The notes under the pieces were generated by a model. It worked only from the letters and a program-made list of their open reading frames with translations. It was not told where the DNA came from and ran no database searches. This document shows positions 19,057 through 42,500 of a DNA stretch of 64,000 nt, one piece after another; within the stretch, counting starts at the first letter, position 1, and every line of letters starts with the position of its first letter. The stretch covers positions 1 through 64,000 of the forward strand of contig JADHWK010000008.1 of NCBI GenBank assembly GCA_016783505.1. Direction: 5' to 3'. Position numbers and translations under genes: made by a program. Origin of the DNA: Candidatus Zhuqueibacterota bacterium (GTDB lineage: Bacteria; BS750m-G25).

Positions 19057-19061
19057 ATAAG

Positions 19062-19132
19062 TAGCGCGTACGGGAATCGAACCCGTGTTATCCCGAAGTA
19101 TCGGGATGTCATAGACCCCTGACGAACGCGCC
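19062..19132 (-). pseudogene. Broken tRNA-Glu copy with a palindromic anticodon arm
   Basis: Acceptor, T arm and most of the D arm match the intact tRNA-Glu(CTC) next door. The anticodon arm, however, is 'TCCCGA-TACT-TCGGGA', which leaves no normal 7-nt loop or Glu anticodon. One base is also lost in the D loop, giving 71 nt instead of 73. The arm matches the palindrome family scattered through the intergenic regions. Probably not functional. Confidence 0.75.
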
Positions 19133-33382: not shown

Positions 33383-35575
33383 TCATTTCACCAAAACCAT
33401 CTTGCTCGCCTTCTGAAACTCCCCCGCTTGAATTTGATAAAAATAGATACCAGATGAATGATCGGTTGCATTCCAGCTTATCTGGTGGTAACCGGCCTCT
33501 TGATGCTCATTAGCTAAGGTGGATACTTCTCGTCCAAGTATGTCATATATCTTTAGGGTTACCTTTGAACCCTCAGGAAGCCCGTATTTGATGGTGGTTA
33601 TCGGGTTGAAGGGGTTGGGGTAGTTTTGATCAAGAACGTATACGTTGGGCAAAATGCGTCCTTCATCTGCTATCCCAACGGGCTCAAATACGTGAATGGT
33701 GAAACTATCACACCAGAAGAAGTAGCCTTCACTGGCGATTGACATCTGAATAGGAATGTCATGATCTGGTGGGCAAGTATCCAAGATCTGCAGCATATAG
33801 AAACCGGATGTCATGTGTGCAGTCTCCCCTGCTACGATATCACCCCAAGATGGACCCATCGCTACCAGGTTAAAAACAGAAGTATCATTCGAACTGAGCT
33901 CAGCAGTGACATCCGTTGCGGTGGCCATAGAACCATCGTTCTTAAGAACCGGTCTGAAGATCAGCTGCTCGCCAGGGTTCGGTATGGTATCACTTCCTAT
34001 AAAGTCCAGGTCCTCATATACCACTGGACCGATGGTGGTGAAGCGGGCTAAATCATTAAGGGAAAAATAAACTCCAGAGTCCAAATCAACAGTACTGACC
34101 CCGACTATAAATTCTGTTTCAGAAGACACTGGAGGAATAAAACAACCCCACAGGTCGTCATCCGCTTGGCCGTCACCGTGATTTCCATCATCAAACAGAG
34201 AAATTGAATCAACTATGGTACTATCAATACTGGTAATTAGTGCATTGGCTGAAAAACTATGATTATCAGGGTTATTGAATTGAGTAGTAATTATAAGTGT
34301 GTCTATATCAGGTTGCATAAAATGAGAACTTAATTCAATGTTTTGGGCATAGATTCTTTGACTTAAAAAGCCGAATATGGCTAATTGATCCCCAATAGCT
34401 CTTTTACCTCCCTCGGACTCTCCATTTGTTAATAAAGTAATCCCAAATTGGTTTTCTGAGTCAAGTAGATAAAACATTTCCGTTCTACATCCGTAATCTG
34501 AACCGGCGTGTCCAATGTACGTTCTGGTGCCTAAAAATGGGAGGTTGTGATCGAAAACAAACCATACTAAGCCTCGAGTGGAAGATAGTGCTGGATATTG
34601 TACAGTCGTCATCAAATCAACCGTCGCACTATCTAAAATTCTAATACCATCGATTTCACCCATTTGCATATATGTGGTTAAAAACCGAGCCAGTTGTGTT
34701 GCGCTCGTTCTTAGCTGCCCATCAGGATAGTCGGGATAACCGTAATGTTGGTAAGGGATGTAGTTATTATTAGTATAGCTGTATGGAATGGCAATATTAC
34801 TTGTATCAAGACCATCTAAAAACCAGGAGGTTTCATTCATACCTAAAGGAGTAAATATATTCTCCTGGCAATAGTCTGCGAAAGGAGTATCAGCTATCGC
34901 TTCAACCAGATATCCCACAAGCGCAAGCGCATAATTACTATATTCCCATTGTGCACCTGGTGCCCAGTTATTAAATGGCCCCCATGAATAATAATTGCCG
35001 CCAGGCATGAAATAATTAACAAGAAGGCTATCTAAGGGTATCGGAGAATCACTGCCCCAGGAATATAGTGATACAATAAGATCCCAATCATTATCTATGC
35101 TCGACGTATGGGTGAGAAGTTGGCGGAAAGTGATGGAGTCATTTGGAAACGACGGATTGATTATTTGTAATTCTGGTGGCAGGTAGTTATTAATGTTGTC
35201 ATCCAGTCCGAATAATCCCTCCTCCCAAAGTTGCATGAGTGCTGTAGCAGTAAACGGTTTAGAAAGTGAGGCGATTATAAATGTGGTAGTATCTGTCACC
35301 GGCTGGTTTTGTTCAATATTCGAATATCCGTAAACACCGGACCAATAGATGTCTCCTTCCCTGATTATACAAGCGGAGACACCTGGGATATGATATTGGT
35401 CCATCGTAGCAATAATAAATGAATCCAAGGCGGCAGAATCAAGAACAGTTAAAGCTCTATCATGCTCTCGTGGTAAGTCTCTAAAAGGAATATTATTCTG
35501 AGAATATTCAAGCTGGGCGTTTGCGAATTGTGATAGGAATGCCACTGTAGTAAAAATATTGATTAGCTTTTTCAT
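33383..35575 (-). CDS. Secreted beta-lactamase-fold serine hydrolase with T9SS sorting domain
   Basis: 730 residues. Signal peptide KKLINIFTTVAFLSQFANAQ. The class C beta-lactamase/esterase fold has the S-x-x-K nucleophile motif in 'IIASLSKPFTATALMQLWEEG' and the Y-x-N-type motif in 'WEYSNYALALVGYL' (about residues 30-390). A beta-sandwich segment follows (about 420-630). The C-terminal 85 residues are a T9SS-type sorting domain: NYPNPFNPITTIKYGLPEGS, 'ILGREVSTL', 'SSGIYFYQIQAG' and 'KASKMVLVK'. So it should be secreted across the outer membrane and attached or released there. Activity could be on peptides, esters or beta-lactams. ATG follows AAAGGAG. Confidence 0.9.
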   Translation of the reverse strand: MKKLINIFTTVAFLSQFANAQLEYSQNNIPFRDLPREHDRALTVLDSAALDSFIIATMDQYHIPGVSACIIREGDIYWSGVYGYSNIEQNQPVTDTTTFIIASLSKPFTATALMQLWEEGLFGLDDNINNYLPPELQIINPSFPNDSITFRQLLTHTSSIDNDWDLIVSLYSWGSDSPIPLDSLLVNYFMPGGNYYSWGPFNNWAPGAQWEYSNYALALVGYLVEAIADTPFADYCQENIFTPLGMNETSWFLDGLDTSNIAIPYSYTNNNYIPYQHYGYPDYPDGQLRTSATQLARFLTTYMQMGEIDGIRILDSATVDLMTTVQYPALSSTRGLVWFVFDHNLPFLGTRTYIGHAGSDYGCRTEMFYLLDSENQFGITLLTNGESEGGKRAIGDQLAIFGFLSQRIYAQNIELSSHFMQPDIDTLIITTQFNNPDNHSFSANALITSIDSTIVDSISLFDDGNHGDGQADDDLWGCFIPPVSSETEFIVGVSTVDLDSGVYFSLNDLARFTTIGPVVYEDLDFIGSDTIPNPGEQLIFRPVLKNDGSMATATDVTAELSSNDTSVFNLVAMGPSWGDIVAGETAHMTSGFYMLQILDTCPPDHDIPIQMSIASEGYFFWCDSFTIHVFEPVGIADEGRILPNVYVLDQNYPNPFNPITTIKYGLPEGSKVTLKIYDILGREVSTLANEHQEAGYHQISWNATDHSSGIYFYQIQAGEFQKASKMVLVK

Positions 35576-35603: not shown

Positions 35604-37409
35604 TTATTTGAGCAACAAAAGCTTTTTTGTATCTATAAACTCCCCCGCTTGAATTTGATAAAAATAGATTCCAGATGAATAACCGGATGCATCCCAGTAT
35701 ATCTGGTGATAACCGGCATCTTGATGCTCATTAACTAAGGTGGATACTTCTCGTCCCAAGATGTCAAATACCTTAAGGGTTACATTCGATTCTTGGGGAA
35801 GCCCGTATTTGATGGTGGTTATCGGGTTGAAGGGGTTGGGATAATTCTGATCCAGCCGGAAGGCTGTAGGTATCCCTACATCCACCCCGTCATCCAGGGC
35901 CAGAGGGGCATCGAACCAGGCTAAAATCCTGGCCAGAGCGGAATCCCGTGGGGTGGACTGGCCGTAAGAGGTAATCCTCCCACCAACCGATTCAAAGGGG
36001 AAGGCGAAAAAGACCACCCGGTAGGTTTGGTCGGCGTACCGAATTCCCCCTACGGTAGACGCGTCGTGATAGATGTAAACAGCGACCGCATCCCCTTGGG
36101 GGATAACAGAGCTATTGGAAGAGGGGGGCCCGGCTCCGTTTCCTCCAAAGAGAACCAGCAACTCCCCGGTGCTGTTGGGGTCCCCGATAGGGTCGCCCGG
36201 GGTGGCGTCTAAATATCGGTTGGAAACATAATTCAACTCATGTTGGGCGTGGAGGTATTCAGCGAAGAAGGAAGAATCCCCGATTTCGTCCCCGGCATTC
36301 TGACTGCTCAAGAATAGATTCCCCCCGCCGTCAAGATAGGCCGCCAACTGGGTCTGTTCATCAGGGGAAATGGTGCTGGAAGTCGCTTCACCCGTAAACC
36401 AGACCACCTTGGAATAATGCTGAAGCTCAGCAGACGGGGGATGCCCCTGGGTAACGTTTTCCCACCGGTCTATTACCAGCCCCAATGTATCTATGGTATT
36501 TAGATAATATTGCTCAATATCATCACCCCCGTCGTCATCCACCAGAATAATCTCAGGACGCCCCACCATAAAGGAAAATGCCAATGTATCCCGATAATTG
36601 TCGGGTTGTGCCGTAACAATGAGGGAAAAATCCACCACGTGGGGCTGCAAGCCCCCGGCCACCGAAAAGATGAAAGGGTCAGCAGAGTTGTCGGCCACCG
36701 AAGCCGGGGGGATGAGGGGATAAGAGACGGTATCTACTATAAAACTGATCTCAGGGTCCGGGGTGGAGAGGGTGGCTACCACCGAATCCGCCTGCTGGGT
36801 AAAGGACGCATTTCTCAGGGTCACCACCATCTGGGCCGTCTCCCCCGGGTCGGGACGTCCGTCCCCATTGCCATCGTCGGTAATGGAATGACTGGTAAAA
36901 ATAATAGCTAGGGGCAAATAGGTTTCAATAACCGCAATGATGGCGGCTTCGTAATAACCGGAATCCCCATAGCGGAGGATCTGGTCGCTGTCAATGACGG
37001 CATTAAAGGGGATGTACCCGTCCCCATATTGCCCATAAACATCGCTCCCCTGATACAACAGAGGAAACGTAATCGGCACCGTCATATTATTAACCCAGGC
37101 CAATATTGTTTCCAGGGTTTCGCTATTATCCACGTCTATCCCCAAAACCTGCATCCCCAGATCCTGATAAACCTGCCAGATGTTCTGTTCTAACTGTGGC
37201 AACTCCACAGTACAACCCCCTCACCAGGTGGCGAAAAAATTCAGTAGAACTAACTGATCGCTGTAATCGTAAAGGGAAACCGTGCCCCCATTCACGTCAG
37301 GCAGCGTAAAATCATCCACGTGGTCGCCGACCTGATATTGGGCGAAAACATTACCCACAGAGGCAATGACTAACGCCAAAACCAGGACTAAAAAATAATT
37401 CTTTCTCAT
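35604..37409 (-). CDS. Candidate selenocysteine redoxin (UxxC) with T9SS sorting domain
   Basis: 601 residues if UGA at 37221-37223 is read through. The N-terminus has a signal peptide (RKNYFLVLVLALVIASVGNVFAQ), then an AhpC/TlpA-type redoxin domain: 'VGDHVDDFTLPDVNGGTVSLYDY', then 'LVLLNFFATW', UGA, 'GGCTVELPQLEQNIWQVY'. In redoxins this place is W-C-x-x-C, so UGA replaces the first Cys exactly and gives U-G-G-C. Downstream more than 530 codons are open in the same frame: a beta-sandwich, an alpha/beta part with 'EIILVDDDGGDD' and 'QTQLAAYLDGGGNLFLSSQNAG', and a T9SS sorting domain (NYPNPFNP, ILGREVSTL, SSGIYFYQIQAG, KKLLLLK). A SECIS-like hairpin follows the UGA. ATG 37409 has GGAGGTG 5 nt upstream. 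Alternative: TGT/TGC to TGA nonsense, which would leave a 62-residue fragment. Confidence 0.8.
37193..37211 (-). promoter_or_regulatory. Candidate bacterial SECIS element
   Basis: On the minus strand, 9 nt after the UGA (37221-37223), ACTGTGG-AGTTG-CCACAGT forms a perfect 7-bp stem with a 5-nt loop. The loop's second base is G and 16 nt separate UGA from the loop. This fits the known bacterial SECIS rules (loop of 3-14 nt, G among the first two loop bases, 16-37 nt distance). SelB would bind here. It lies inside the coding region, as bacterial SECIS elements do. Confidence 0.7.
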
Positions 37410-37983
37410 TTCCACCTCCATCTAATTGTTAAATCTTATTACTATTTAAATATTTTTATATGTTTGTGTAAATTAACATTTTGTATAATATTTACTTAGT
37501 TCACTTTAATCTATCCAAAAAAGTTTGACTTCTGAAATTAGGATTACACGATTTAATATAGCAATAAATTTTAAAAAAGCAAGAGAAAATTTCAAAAGAA
37601 CAAAAGGCCTACTCAAGATGAATGAATAGGCCTTTAAAAAGAAAGTGGCTTAATTTCTGCAGATTAATGGATTAATTTAAAAGGGAGCAATTAGACTTAC
37701 CATAATTGCTAATGATAGTTCTTATTATCTAATCGGCGACTTTTCTCTTCATTTTTTTCTCAGGAGTATTGGAATTTGATTGAATAAGCATAACGCCTTT
37801 ATTGAATAGACTCCAAGACCATGATTATAAAGGAACGCCCAGCTCATTACCGAACCTGTTCTTCTAAAAAATGGGCGGGCTTCACAGAGTCCGCCACTAC
37901 CAAAATTTTACACCTTGAATTTGAGAATAGGTGTTCATGACTGAATCCAAGATTTATCACAAAAATTAGTCTTTGCATTTAAG
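37410..37983. other. Intergenic region with terminator-like repeat
   Basis: Upstream side of the redoxin gene (AT-rich, probable promoter at 37430-37560) and terminator copy 4. On the minus strand 37745-37905 an unstarted open frame (SGGLCEARPFFRRTGSVMSW...) may be a decayed gene end, but I cannot support it as a gene. Confidence 0.35.
37602..37635. terminator. Terminator-like dispersed repeat, copy 4
   Basis: aaaaggccta-ctcaagatgaatgaa-taggccttt with the flank 'gcaagagaaaatttcaaaag' shared with copies 1-3. Downstream of the kinase-aminotransferase fusion gene (minus). Confidence 0.75.
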
Positions 37984-40344
37984 TTATAGGTTCTTAAGGG
38001 CGCCCTCTCCTAAAATTTTATCAAGTGTACTGACCAATAAATCTGCGTTGGTATCCGAGAAAACCAATGGTGGCTTTATCTTCAATATATTGTCAAGAGG
38101 GCCTTCTGTACCAATAAGAATTCCTTCTTCTTTCATTCTTTCGATTATATAGGCTGCTTGCTCGGTTGCCGGAGCTAAAGTCTCCCGGTCAAGTACAAGT
38201 TCGACACCAATAAAAAGTCCCAGCCCTCTTACGTCCCCTATTAATGGATGTTTTGCCATTAATTGTTCAAGACCCCTTTTCATTCGATCGCCTACGCTCA
38301 AAGCGTTCTCTTGCAGCTTTTCCTCCTCAATGACATCAAGCACAGCTAAACCTACTGCACAAGAAACCGGATTGCCGCCATAGGTATTAAAATACTCCAT
38401 GCCGCTGTCAAAAGATTCTGCAAGTTCCGGTGTGGTGACAACCGCCGCAAGTGGGTGTCCATTACCGATAGGTTTACCAAGTGTCACAATATCCGGGACC
38501 ACTCCCTGAGTCTCAAAGCCCCAAAAATGCGACCCGACCCGGCCAAATCCGACCTGAACTTCATCGACAATACAAACTCCGCCGGCATTCCTGACATGTT
38601 GAAATGCTTCTTTAAGATAATTTTCCGGTAATATAATCTGGCCGCCGCAACCCAACAATGATTCACAAATGAATGCCGCTACATTCTTTTGTACTTTTTG
38701 CATTCGCTCAATCGCAGTAAAAATATGTTCCGCATACTTTTTACCGGCTTCGGAGTCGTTAGCTTTATAAATTCCTCTGTATATATCCGGCGTGATAACC
38801 TTATGAATAAAGGGTTCGGCGCCTGTTCCCCCGGGGCCATCAAACTTATAGGGACTCATCTCGATATCAGCTGTGGTTGTGCCGTGGTAGGCCCCATCAA
38901 CGACAATAACATCTTTACGTTTCGAATGAGTACGTGCAAGGCGAAGCGCAAGGTCGTTTGCTTCACTTCCCGTACAAACAAAAAAACAGACGCTTAGCGG
39001 TTCGGGCATCTTCGAGGTAAGACGCTGCGCGTATTTTACAAGGTTATCATGGAGGTATCTTGTGTTTGTGTTCAAAACCGCTATCTGTCTTTGTGCTGCT
39101 TTGACGACCTTTGGGTGACAATGTCCCACATGGGGAACATTATTGACGGCATCCAGGTAGGTATGGCCAGTGTCATCATACAAATATTGCATGGCCCCCC
39201 GAATGATCTTAAGCGGTTTTTGATATAAAATGCTTAAGGATTTTCCAATATGCTGCTGCCTAAGATTGATGATTTGCCCATGACTCCTACCTTGCCGTTT
39301 AGGGGAAGAAGATATTTCACAAGCCTGACTGAATTCTTCATACGCGTGTTCTGGATTTAATTCTATCAATTTCCCCAGTAATTCCCACGCTGGCTTTTCG
39401 GAAACGGTTATATACTCATTATCCGGCTCGAGCTTTTTTTGATAGGCCGACATGGTTACGCTGATACAAAGCCGCGCACATATCAAGTAATAAAGCACTT
39501 CCAATTCCAAATCTGTTAATGGAAGGACTTCATGATAACCCCTTATTATATGTTTTGCGACCGCTACTGGATCTTCCCTATCTAACATTGCATAAGTAAT
39601 AGCTACGGCAAGTTCACACACGGTATGCGTATAAACCATATCGCTAAAGTCAATTATCCCGATGAATCTTTTGCTGCCTGAATCAGATTCATCCAAAAGC
39701 ACATTGTAGTCATTGGCATCATTATGAATGACACTGCTGCGGAGGCGGGGTAAAACGGGTGTAACAAACGTTTCGAATTGTAACTGAAAGTGTTCTACAA
39801 GACTCCTTCGCCGCGGATCTGTAATATAGCAGATTTTTTGTTTGGCATGGAGGGCGTTTTTCAAATCCCACGACAAATACCTATACGCAGCTGAATGATA
39901 AAATCCTTCGAGTGTTTTATCCATCGTGCCTAAAAATTTACCGAAATTATGAAGTATTTCGGGTGTGTGTGGATCGATATCTTTTAGGAAAGTACCTTTG
40001 AGAAAAGTCAACATCCGCGCTAAGTGAGATGTACCGTTATCACTCTTTATAATAGCAATCTGTTCTCCTGATATTGTGTTACGTACACGGGGACACTCGA
40101 CAGCCTTACTATACTTTGTCAGGTGTCCCATGGCCTGGTTTTGGGCATCAAGAACCTCTCTTTTCTCTGCTGGATTGGCTATCTTAAGGATAAACTCCCT
40201 ACCCATGTCATCTGTGAGGTGAAAGTTTTGGTCCATATAGCTTTCTAATTGTCGGACAGATGCGTTGATACCGTACAACTCCCTGGCAAATCTCATAATC
40301 TCTTTATCAGAAAAGCGGGGGCGTGGTGATTCAACTCTGGACAT
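37984..40344 (-). CDS. APH-like kinase fused to class III aminotransferase
   Basis: 786 residues. The N-terminal half (about 1-330) is an aminoglycoside-phosphotransferase/choline-kinase-like domain with catalytic '[15 protein letters not shown]' and metal-binding '[11 protein letters not shown]'. The C-terminal half (about 360-780) is a PLP-dependent class III aminotransferase with '[13 protein letters not shown]', '[21 protein letters not shown]' and the PLP-lysine region '[18 protein letters not shown]'. The two halves correspond to separate animal enzymes, hydroxylysine kinase (AGPHD1) and the phospho-lyases AGXT2L1/2, so a kinase plus phospho-lyase acting on ethanolamine, hydroxylysine or a similar amino alcohol is the best guess. 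Both sites look intact. ATG follows GGAGGG. Confidence 0.88.
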
Positions 40345-42197: not shown

Positions 42198-42500
42198 TCA
42201 CTTCACCAAAACCATCTTCCTCACCTTCTGAAACTTCCCCGCTTGAATTTGGTAGAAATAGATTCCAGATGAGTATCCAGTGGCATCCCAATTTATCTGG
42301 TGGTAACCAGCAGTTTGATGTTCATCAACTAATGTGGCCACTTCCCGCCCCAGGATGTTAAATACCTTAAGGGTTACATTCGATTCTTGGGGAAGCCCGT
42401 ATTTGATGGTGGTTATCGGGTTGAAAGGGTTATAGTGGTTTTGATACAACTTAAAACTTTCAAGGAAATTGAATAAATATGTTTCTTTAATCCCTACCAT
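42198..42500 (-). pseudogene. T9SS sorting domain with little else, likely gene remnant
   Basis: The frame has about 22 unrelated residues (MVGIKETYLFNFLESFKLYQ) and then a full sorting domain (NPFNPITTIKYGLPQESN, ILGREVATLV, SSGIYFYQIQAG, RKMVLVK). There is no signal peptide or passenger. NHYNPFNP in place of NYPNPFNP suggests decay. It ends 42 bases upstream of the beta-helix gene's start, in the same direction. Probably the tail of a lost gene. Confidence 0.7.

Follow-up and report, generated by a model that had tools for sequence, protein, structure and literature searches.

A probable selenocysteine-containing ResA-type redoxin with a type IX secretion sorting domain in an uncultured bacterium

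Described relatives and organisation of the gene

The 2026 catalogue of selenoproteins, covering 119 prokaryotic families (PMC13188914), includes two entries that come close to the gene described here. One is the Prx-like thiol:disulfide oxidoreductases of PF00578, predicted selenoproteins with UxxC or UxxU motifs, and the other is the 'hypothetical protein GOS_C' (PMC2398784) with the model NF045500, named Omp28-related selenoprotein in NCBIfam. The protein analysed in this work has in common with the first entry the Pfam domain, the UxxC motif and selenocysteine (Sec, U) at the position of the first Cys; beyond these it has an extended middle region and a type IX secretion system (T9SS) sorting domain, both unmentioned in that listing. 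With ResA, TlpA and DsbE it shares the fold, the position of the WCxxC motif and the conserved proline, but it carries Sec in place of the attacking Cys and is T9SS-tailed instead of membrane-anchored. It has the ResA fold and probably the same chemistry, and falls outside the ResA family by the cut-off of the model NF002854 (69.9 versus 170 bits). The protein itself gives no match to the Omp28-related selenoprotein NF045500. This family resembles a second class of proteins (L091 and L066, discussed below), which have an Omp28/Trx-like domain with UxxC but lie far below the NF045500 cut-off and are both T9SS-tailed. As in T9SS type A cargo (Por_Secre_tail, TIGR04183), a C-terminal sorting domain scores above cut-off in the protein under study.

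Both types of redoxin domain have already been predicted as selenoproteins, and what appears to be new is the T9SS-tailed architecture. The openly licensed literature, searched for selenoprotein together with type IX secretion, Omp28 or sorting domain, gave no report of a T9SS cargo with selenocysteine, and for this reason the architecture looks undescribed; in the same literature nothing relevant was found on selenocysteine in Electryoneota. The first-pass annotation had proposed a new selenoprotein and had considered Sec in a T9SS substrate an unusual combination with no known example. The novelty holds for the architecture and not for the domain type, PF00578 with UxxC, and the combination, while unreported, is not isolated: the same genome contains a paralog, and related genes occur in two or more other phyla.

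The gene is found in the window, which is the whole stretch of 64,000 nucleotides analysed (contig JADHWK010000008.1, Candidatus Zhuqueibacterota bacterium). Its features are the following, all on the minus strand:

35604..37409 (-), putative selenoprotein coding sequence, 601 residues with Sec at 63, ATG start, TAA stop, coding signal on both sides of the UGA
37412..37419 (-), ribosome-binding site GGAGGTGG, recognised by sequence, just upstream of the ATG at 37409
37341..37409 (-), signal-peptide-like N-terminus MRKNYFLVLVLALVIASVGNVFA, a typical-looking sequence judged by eye
36954..37331 (-), ResA/AhpC-TSA redoxin domain, residues 27-152, from Pfam PF00578 and the AlphaFold model
37221..37223 (-), in-frame UGA, predicted selenocysteine 63, in a column that is Cys in 44 of 44 Cys homologs (alignment A5)
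37212..37214 (-), codon of the resolving Cys66 of UxxC, an invariant column in alignment A5
37193..37211 (-), bSECIS-type hairpin with a 7-bp stem and the loop AGUUG, the loop 16 nt after the UGA
35865..36914 (-), middle region, residues 166-515, common to the paralog L091 and other large surface proteins
35619..35843 (-), T9SS type A C-terminal sorting domain, residues 523-597 (PF18962, TIGR04183)
33383..35575 (-), downstream neighbour with a beta-lactamase fold (PF00144) and its own T9SS tail, 28 nt after the selenoprotein stop

The sole in-frame TGA (37223-37221, codon 63) lies between the ATG at 37409-37407 and the TAA at 35604. It stands in the context W-TGA-GGG-GGT-TGT (W-U-G-G-C) within the residues A-T-W-[UGA]-G-G-C of a thioredoxin active site, and is followed by 538 open codons. 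The AhpC-TSA domain (PF00578) spans it, matching residues 27-147 with 74.6 bits (cut-off 26, E 8e-21). Both before and after the TGA the codon bias agrees with that of the window genes, the log-odds being +0.16 and +0.20, respectively; the other forward frames have negative log-odds, so that only the frame of the gene is positive. The end of the protein is matched by Por_Secre_tail (PF18962; 44.1 bits, cut-off 27, E 3e-11) and by TIGR04183 over residues 523-598. These results bear out the initial description of a frame crossing the UGA at the first Cys of a W-C-x-x-C motif and staying open for more than 530 codons to an intact sorting domain. An ORF list made with the standard code breaks the gene into two pieces, a fragment of 66 aa and an ORF of 534 aa whose start is a false GTG at 37208, and automatic annotation would cut such genes at the UGA.

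Homologs of the middle region are parts of large surface proteins, where they stand beside subtilase, gingipain-like or carboxypeptidase-like parts (as judged by eye), and because of this occurrence the region may be a generic surface module. Judging from its spacing, the beta-lactamase-fold neighbour is possibly co-transcribed with the selenoprotein gene. Elsewhere in the window, the frame at 37984-40344 (-) fuses an APH-type phosphotransferase domain to a class III aminotransferase, and a 100-aa ORF at 42198-42500 (-) consists almost entirely of a T9SS sorting domain and may be what is left of a larger cargo gene. Among four normal tRNAs, ARAGORN predicts a tRNA-like gene whose anticodon is incomplete (19061-19132, minus strand), which may be a pseudo-tRNA since it is absent from the Rfam matches.

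Sec homologs, hairpin and decoding machinery

Eight further T9SS-tailed UxxC redoxins were found, of which Electryoneota genomes contributed six and Zixibacteria genomes the other two. In the search of 132 Zixibacteria genomes with the redoxin domain as query, two (L143 and L159) of the 27 matches listed have one TGA; both carry the motif F-A-S-W-U-P-V-C and their domain runs straight into the T9SS tail. The 39 Electryoneota genomes were searched with an alignment of three Sec domains. Among the many matches, the best five (L165-L169) each have a frame of 673-815 codons that contains one TGA, the motif being W-U-P-T-C or W-U-P-L-C, and that ends in a T9SS-like tail. A shorter Electryoneota frame, L181, is of the same kind. 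The tail is over the NCBIfam cut-off in L143 (43.7 bits) and L165 (37 bits), and the tails of the remaining Sec homologs were judged by eye. No relatives of the window redoxin were found in viral contigs.

The only invariant columns in an alignment of 53 redoxin domains are U/C63, C66 and one Phe. A tree of 58 domains places the nine Sec redoxins on the same side of a single branch (94/90; 95% of bootstraps). The window redoxin forms a long branch, nearest to L143 and L159, and its identity to the other Sec redoxins does not exceed 36%.

The hairpin of the window gene, ACUGUGG-AGUUG-CCACAGU, has a predicted energy of -10.9 to -12.3 kcal/mol and satisfies, in its loop, its 7 bp and its distance of 16 nt, the consensus bSECIS rules of the 2026 review (PMC13188914). 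The 7-bp stem and 5-nt loop had been pointed out from the start; they were found as described, the 16 nt being the distance from the UGA to the loop, with the stem beginning after 9 nt. The fold z-score of the single sequence is weak (-1.2 to -1.9), and the weight was put on the comparative test of the hairpin.

In this comparison all nine Sec redoxin genes have a hairpin in the identical register, with 6-7 pairs and a 5-nt loop that starts with AG 16 nt from the UGA, and the stretch following the UGA aligns without gaps. A hairpin in the same register is present in none of 49 Cys redoxin homologs, which form at most 3 contiguous pairs. The stems themselves differ, five different ones being carried by the window gene, L143/L159, L165-168, L169 and L181. 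All seven pairs are changed on both sides among the nine genes and 90.5% of the cells pair; the outermost pair is formed in only three of the nine. The covariation score is 0.813 versus 0.204 +/- 0.072 in shuffles, with none of 500 reaching it, for an effective number of sequences below nine, because four of the nine are close relatives. Shifting the hairpin partner by 1-3 columns abolishes the signal. When synonymous codons were resampled, six or more pairs arose in 4% of the trials on average and in 2% for the window gene. The covarying hairpin is a ready search model for further members of the family.

The window genome (2.5 Mb in 89 contigs, estimated to be 60% complete) contains selA (573 bits), selB (378 bits), selD (389 bits) and a tRNA-Sec (68 bits) with the anticodon TCA, that is UCA. 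selB is present in all four tested genomes of the redoxin class (the window genome G000, G140, G151 and G001). The selD part stands behind a NifS-like domain and has a Cys in its own active site (G-C-A-C-K). The NifS-like cysteine desulfurase and SelD make up one 735-aa frame (L014:412-2619, minus strand, contig C74), a fusion which suggests that selenium might be handed over directly for selenophosphate synthesis.

As a mechanism we propose that the hairpin at 37193-37211 would direct SelB and tRNA-Sec(UCA) to decode the UGA at 37221-37223 as selenocysteine. Genome content, hairpin conservation and covariation support this decoding, and on these sequence data insertion of selenocysteine at this codon is almost certain.

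Reading of the UGA, export and function

The UGA could instead be a true stop, in which case the gene would be a decayed or mis-sequenced redoxin, or else a 62-residue fragment followed by a separate protein that restarts at the GTG at 37208. The 534-aa ORF indeed begins at this GTG just past the UGA, and MAGs do contain single-base errors; however, the identical active-site UGA recurs in eight other redoxin genes and in the paralog, and the hairpin missing from the Cys redoxin homologs covaries. The first-pass annotation had proposed to search the genome for sel genes and to align homologs at the UGA, and had named other decay in this copy as a sign against Sec. The genome holds selA, selB, selD and tRNA-Sec(UCA), the aligned column is Cys in every one of the 44 Cys homologs, and the gene has no other decay, which leaves a true stop very improbable. 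Even less credence can be given to the UGA being an ordinary sense codon of the host, such as Trp (code 4) or Gly (code 25). Such a code would likewise give an open frame across the UGA, but TGA is an ordinary stop in the window, where it ends 14 of the 41 genes of at least 150 aa, and an alternative genetic code was rejected for this reason. Against it also stand the 57 TGG-TGA-N6-TGY sites of the genome, only two of which are in long open frames (the window gene and its paralog L091), and the presence of tRNA-Sec(UCA) with SelA and SelB. The same count of sites speaks against the open frame across the UGA having arisen by chance. The selenoprotein reading of the first-pass annotation is thus the one retained, supported by the sel genes, the Cys homologs, the bSECIS rules and the covariation across phyla.

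A different matter is whether a true selenoprotein of this kind is a T9SS cargo at all, as it could be periplasmic or otherwise anchored, with the Por_Secre/FlgD-like tail having a structural role. Tails of this type are very common in FCB-group genomes and the tail of the window protein also has a weak Pfam match to FlgD_ig, which speak for this possibility. We consider it unlikely, given that TIGR04183 matches the very C-terminus with 43 bits (cut-off 23), that the tail recurs in several other genes of the window and that the Sec redoxins keep it in three lineages. Export by the T9SS, as predicted from the sorting domain, is the likely fate of the product. The N-terminal signal sequence would direct it across the inner membrane, and the T9SS would then carry it over the outer membrane, for release or for anchoring at the cell surface.

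An AlphaFold model of the redoxin domain alone has a pLDDT of 96.8; its best match in the PDB is the ResA-type structure 4nmu (TM 0.87), and ResA-type matches range from TM 0.84 to 0.87. The full-length model, built on 6 sequences, has a pLDDT of 47 and was not used. From the modelled fold and the motif, the product is most likely an extracellular thiol-disulfide oxidoreductase, in which Sec63 would act as the nucleophile on disulfides or other oxidised substrates, with Cys66 as the residue that resolves the selenenylsulfide. The explanation as a whole, a selenoprotein with a ResA-type W-Sec-G-G-C redoxin domain that is exported by the T9SS and acts in extracellular thiol-disulfide exchange, is in our judgement highly probable.

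Selenocysteine is costly and oxygen-sensitive, and therefore its secretion would mean selenium spent outside the cell. The sequences suggest that some bacteria place selenium-based redox enzymes there, which raises the question of the extracellular substrates of such Sec redoxins and of their electron source. If Sec redoxins with T9SS tags do recur in uncultured bacteria, they would, within the searches made, connect type IX secretion with selenium for the first time.

The paralog L091 and the Omp28-like class

The window genome carries a candidate for a second T9SS-tailed selenoprotein on contig C85 (L091:723-2720, minus strand). This paralog is 69% identical to the window protein over residues 153-515 and both have a T9SS tail, but its N-terminal domain is Omp28-like, unlike the redoxin of the window gene, and has the motif A-S-W-[UGA]-V-Y-C (W-U-V-Y-C). 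Sec is strongly argued for, because a single genome joins two kinds of redoxin domain to a common chassis, each with the UGA exactly at the attacking Cys. Among the relatives of the middle region, L066 (JAPEKQ010000002.1, 'bacterium isolate MAG173-P120') has an Omp28-like domain that contains the motif G-U-G-Y-C. Neither reaches the NF045500 cut-off of 200 (69 bits for L091 and 40.5 bits for L066), and by sequence L091 is at most a distant relative of the Omp28-related selenoprotein.

A search with the L066 domain in 20 genomes of its phylum gave matches in 19. Many of the frames contain exactly one TGA, placed at the motif, while others have Cys there. From this Omp28-like class 16 distinct Sec members were extracted, all from one phylum, together with Cys counterparts. 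Considering both classes, we lean towards a class of T9SS-secreted selenoproteins, with at least two distinct redoxin types (ResA-like and Omp28-like), that would occur in at least four lineages (the phylum of the window genome, the G007 phylum, Zixibacteria and Electryoneota) and make up a selenium-based redox system on the cell surface or beyond it.

A loose bSECIS test applied to both classes separates Sec from Cys copies poorly, being passed by 16 of 20 Sec genes, by 4 of 11 Omp28-like Cys genes and by 107 of 400 synonymous shuffles (27%); little weight was given to it, as the nearest Omp28-like Cys copies still carry the hairpin, which would be expected if they had lost Sec recently. selB is over the cut-off in 7 of the 12 genomes of the Omp28 phylum with UGA copies and in 4 of the 8 without, so that its presence is uninformative as a correlate there, probably owing to the incompleteness of the MAGs.

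The G007 phylum has a large family of T9SS-tailed Omp28-like proteins (L107-L135) whose first CxxC position is UGA in some members and Cys in others, with more than one such copy in several genomes. In L114 and L117 an intact Cys copy is directly preceded by the frameshifted remains of an N-terminus that contains UGA (ATS-U-G), and from their sequence these look like a decaying Sec gene adjoining a Cys relative.
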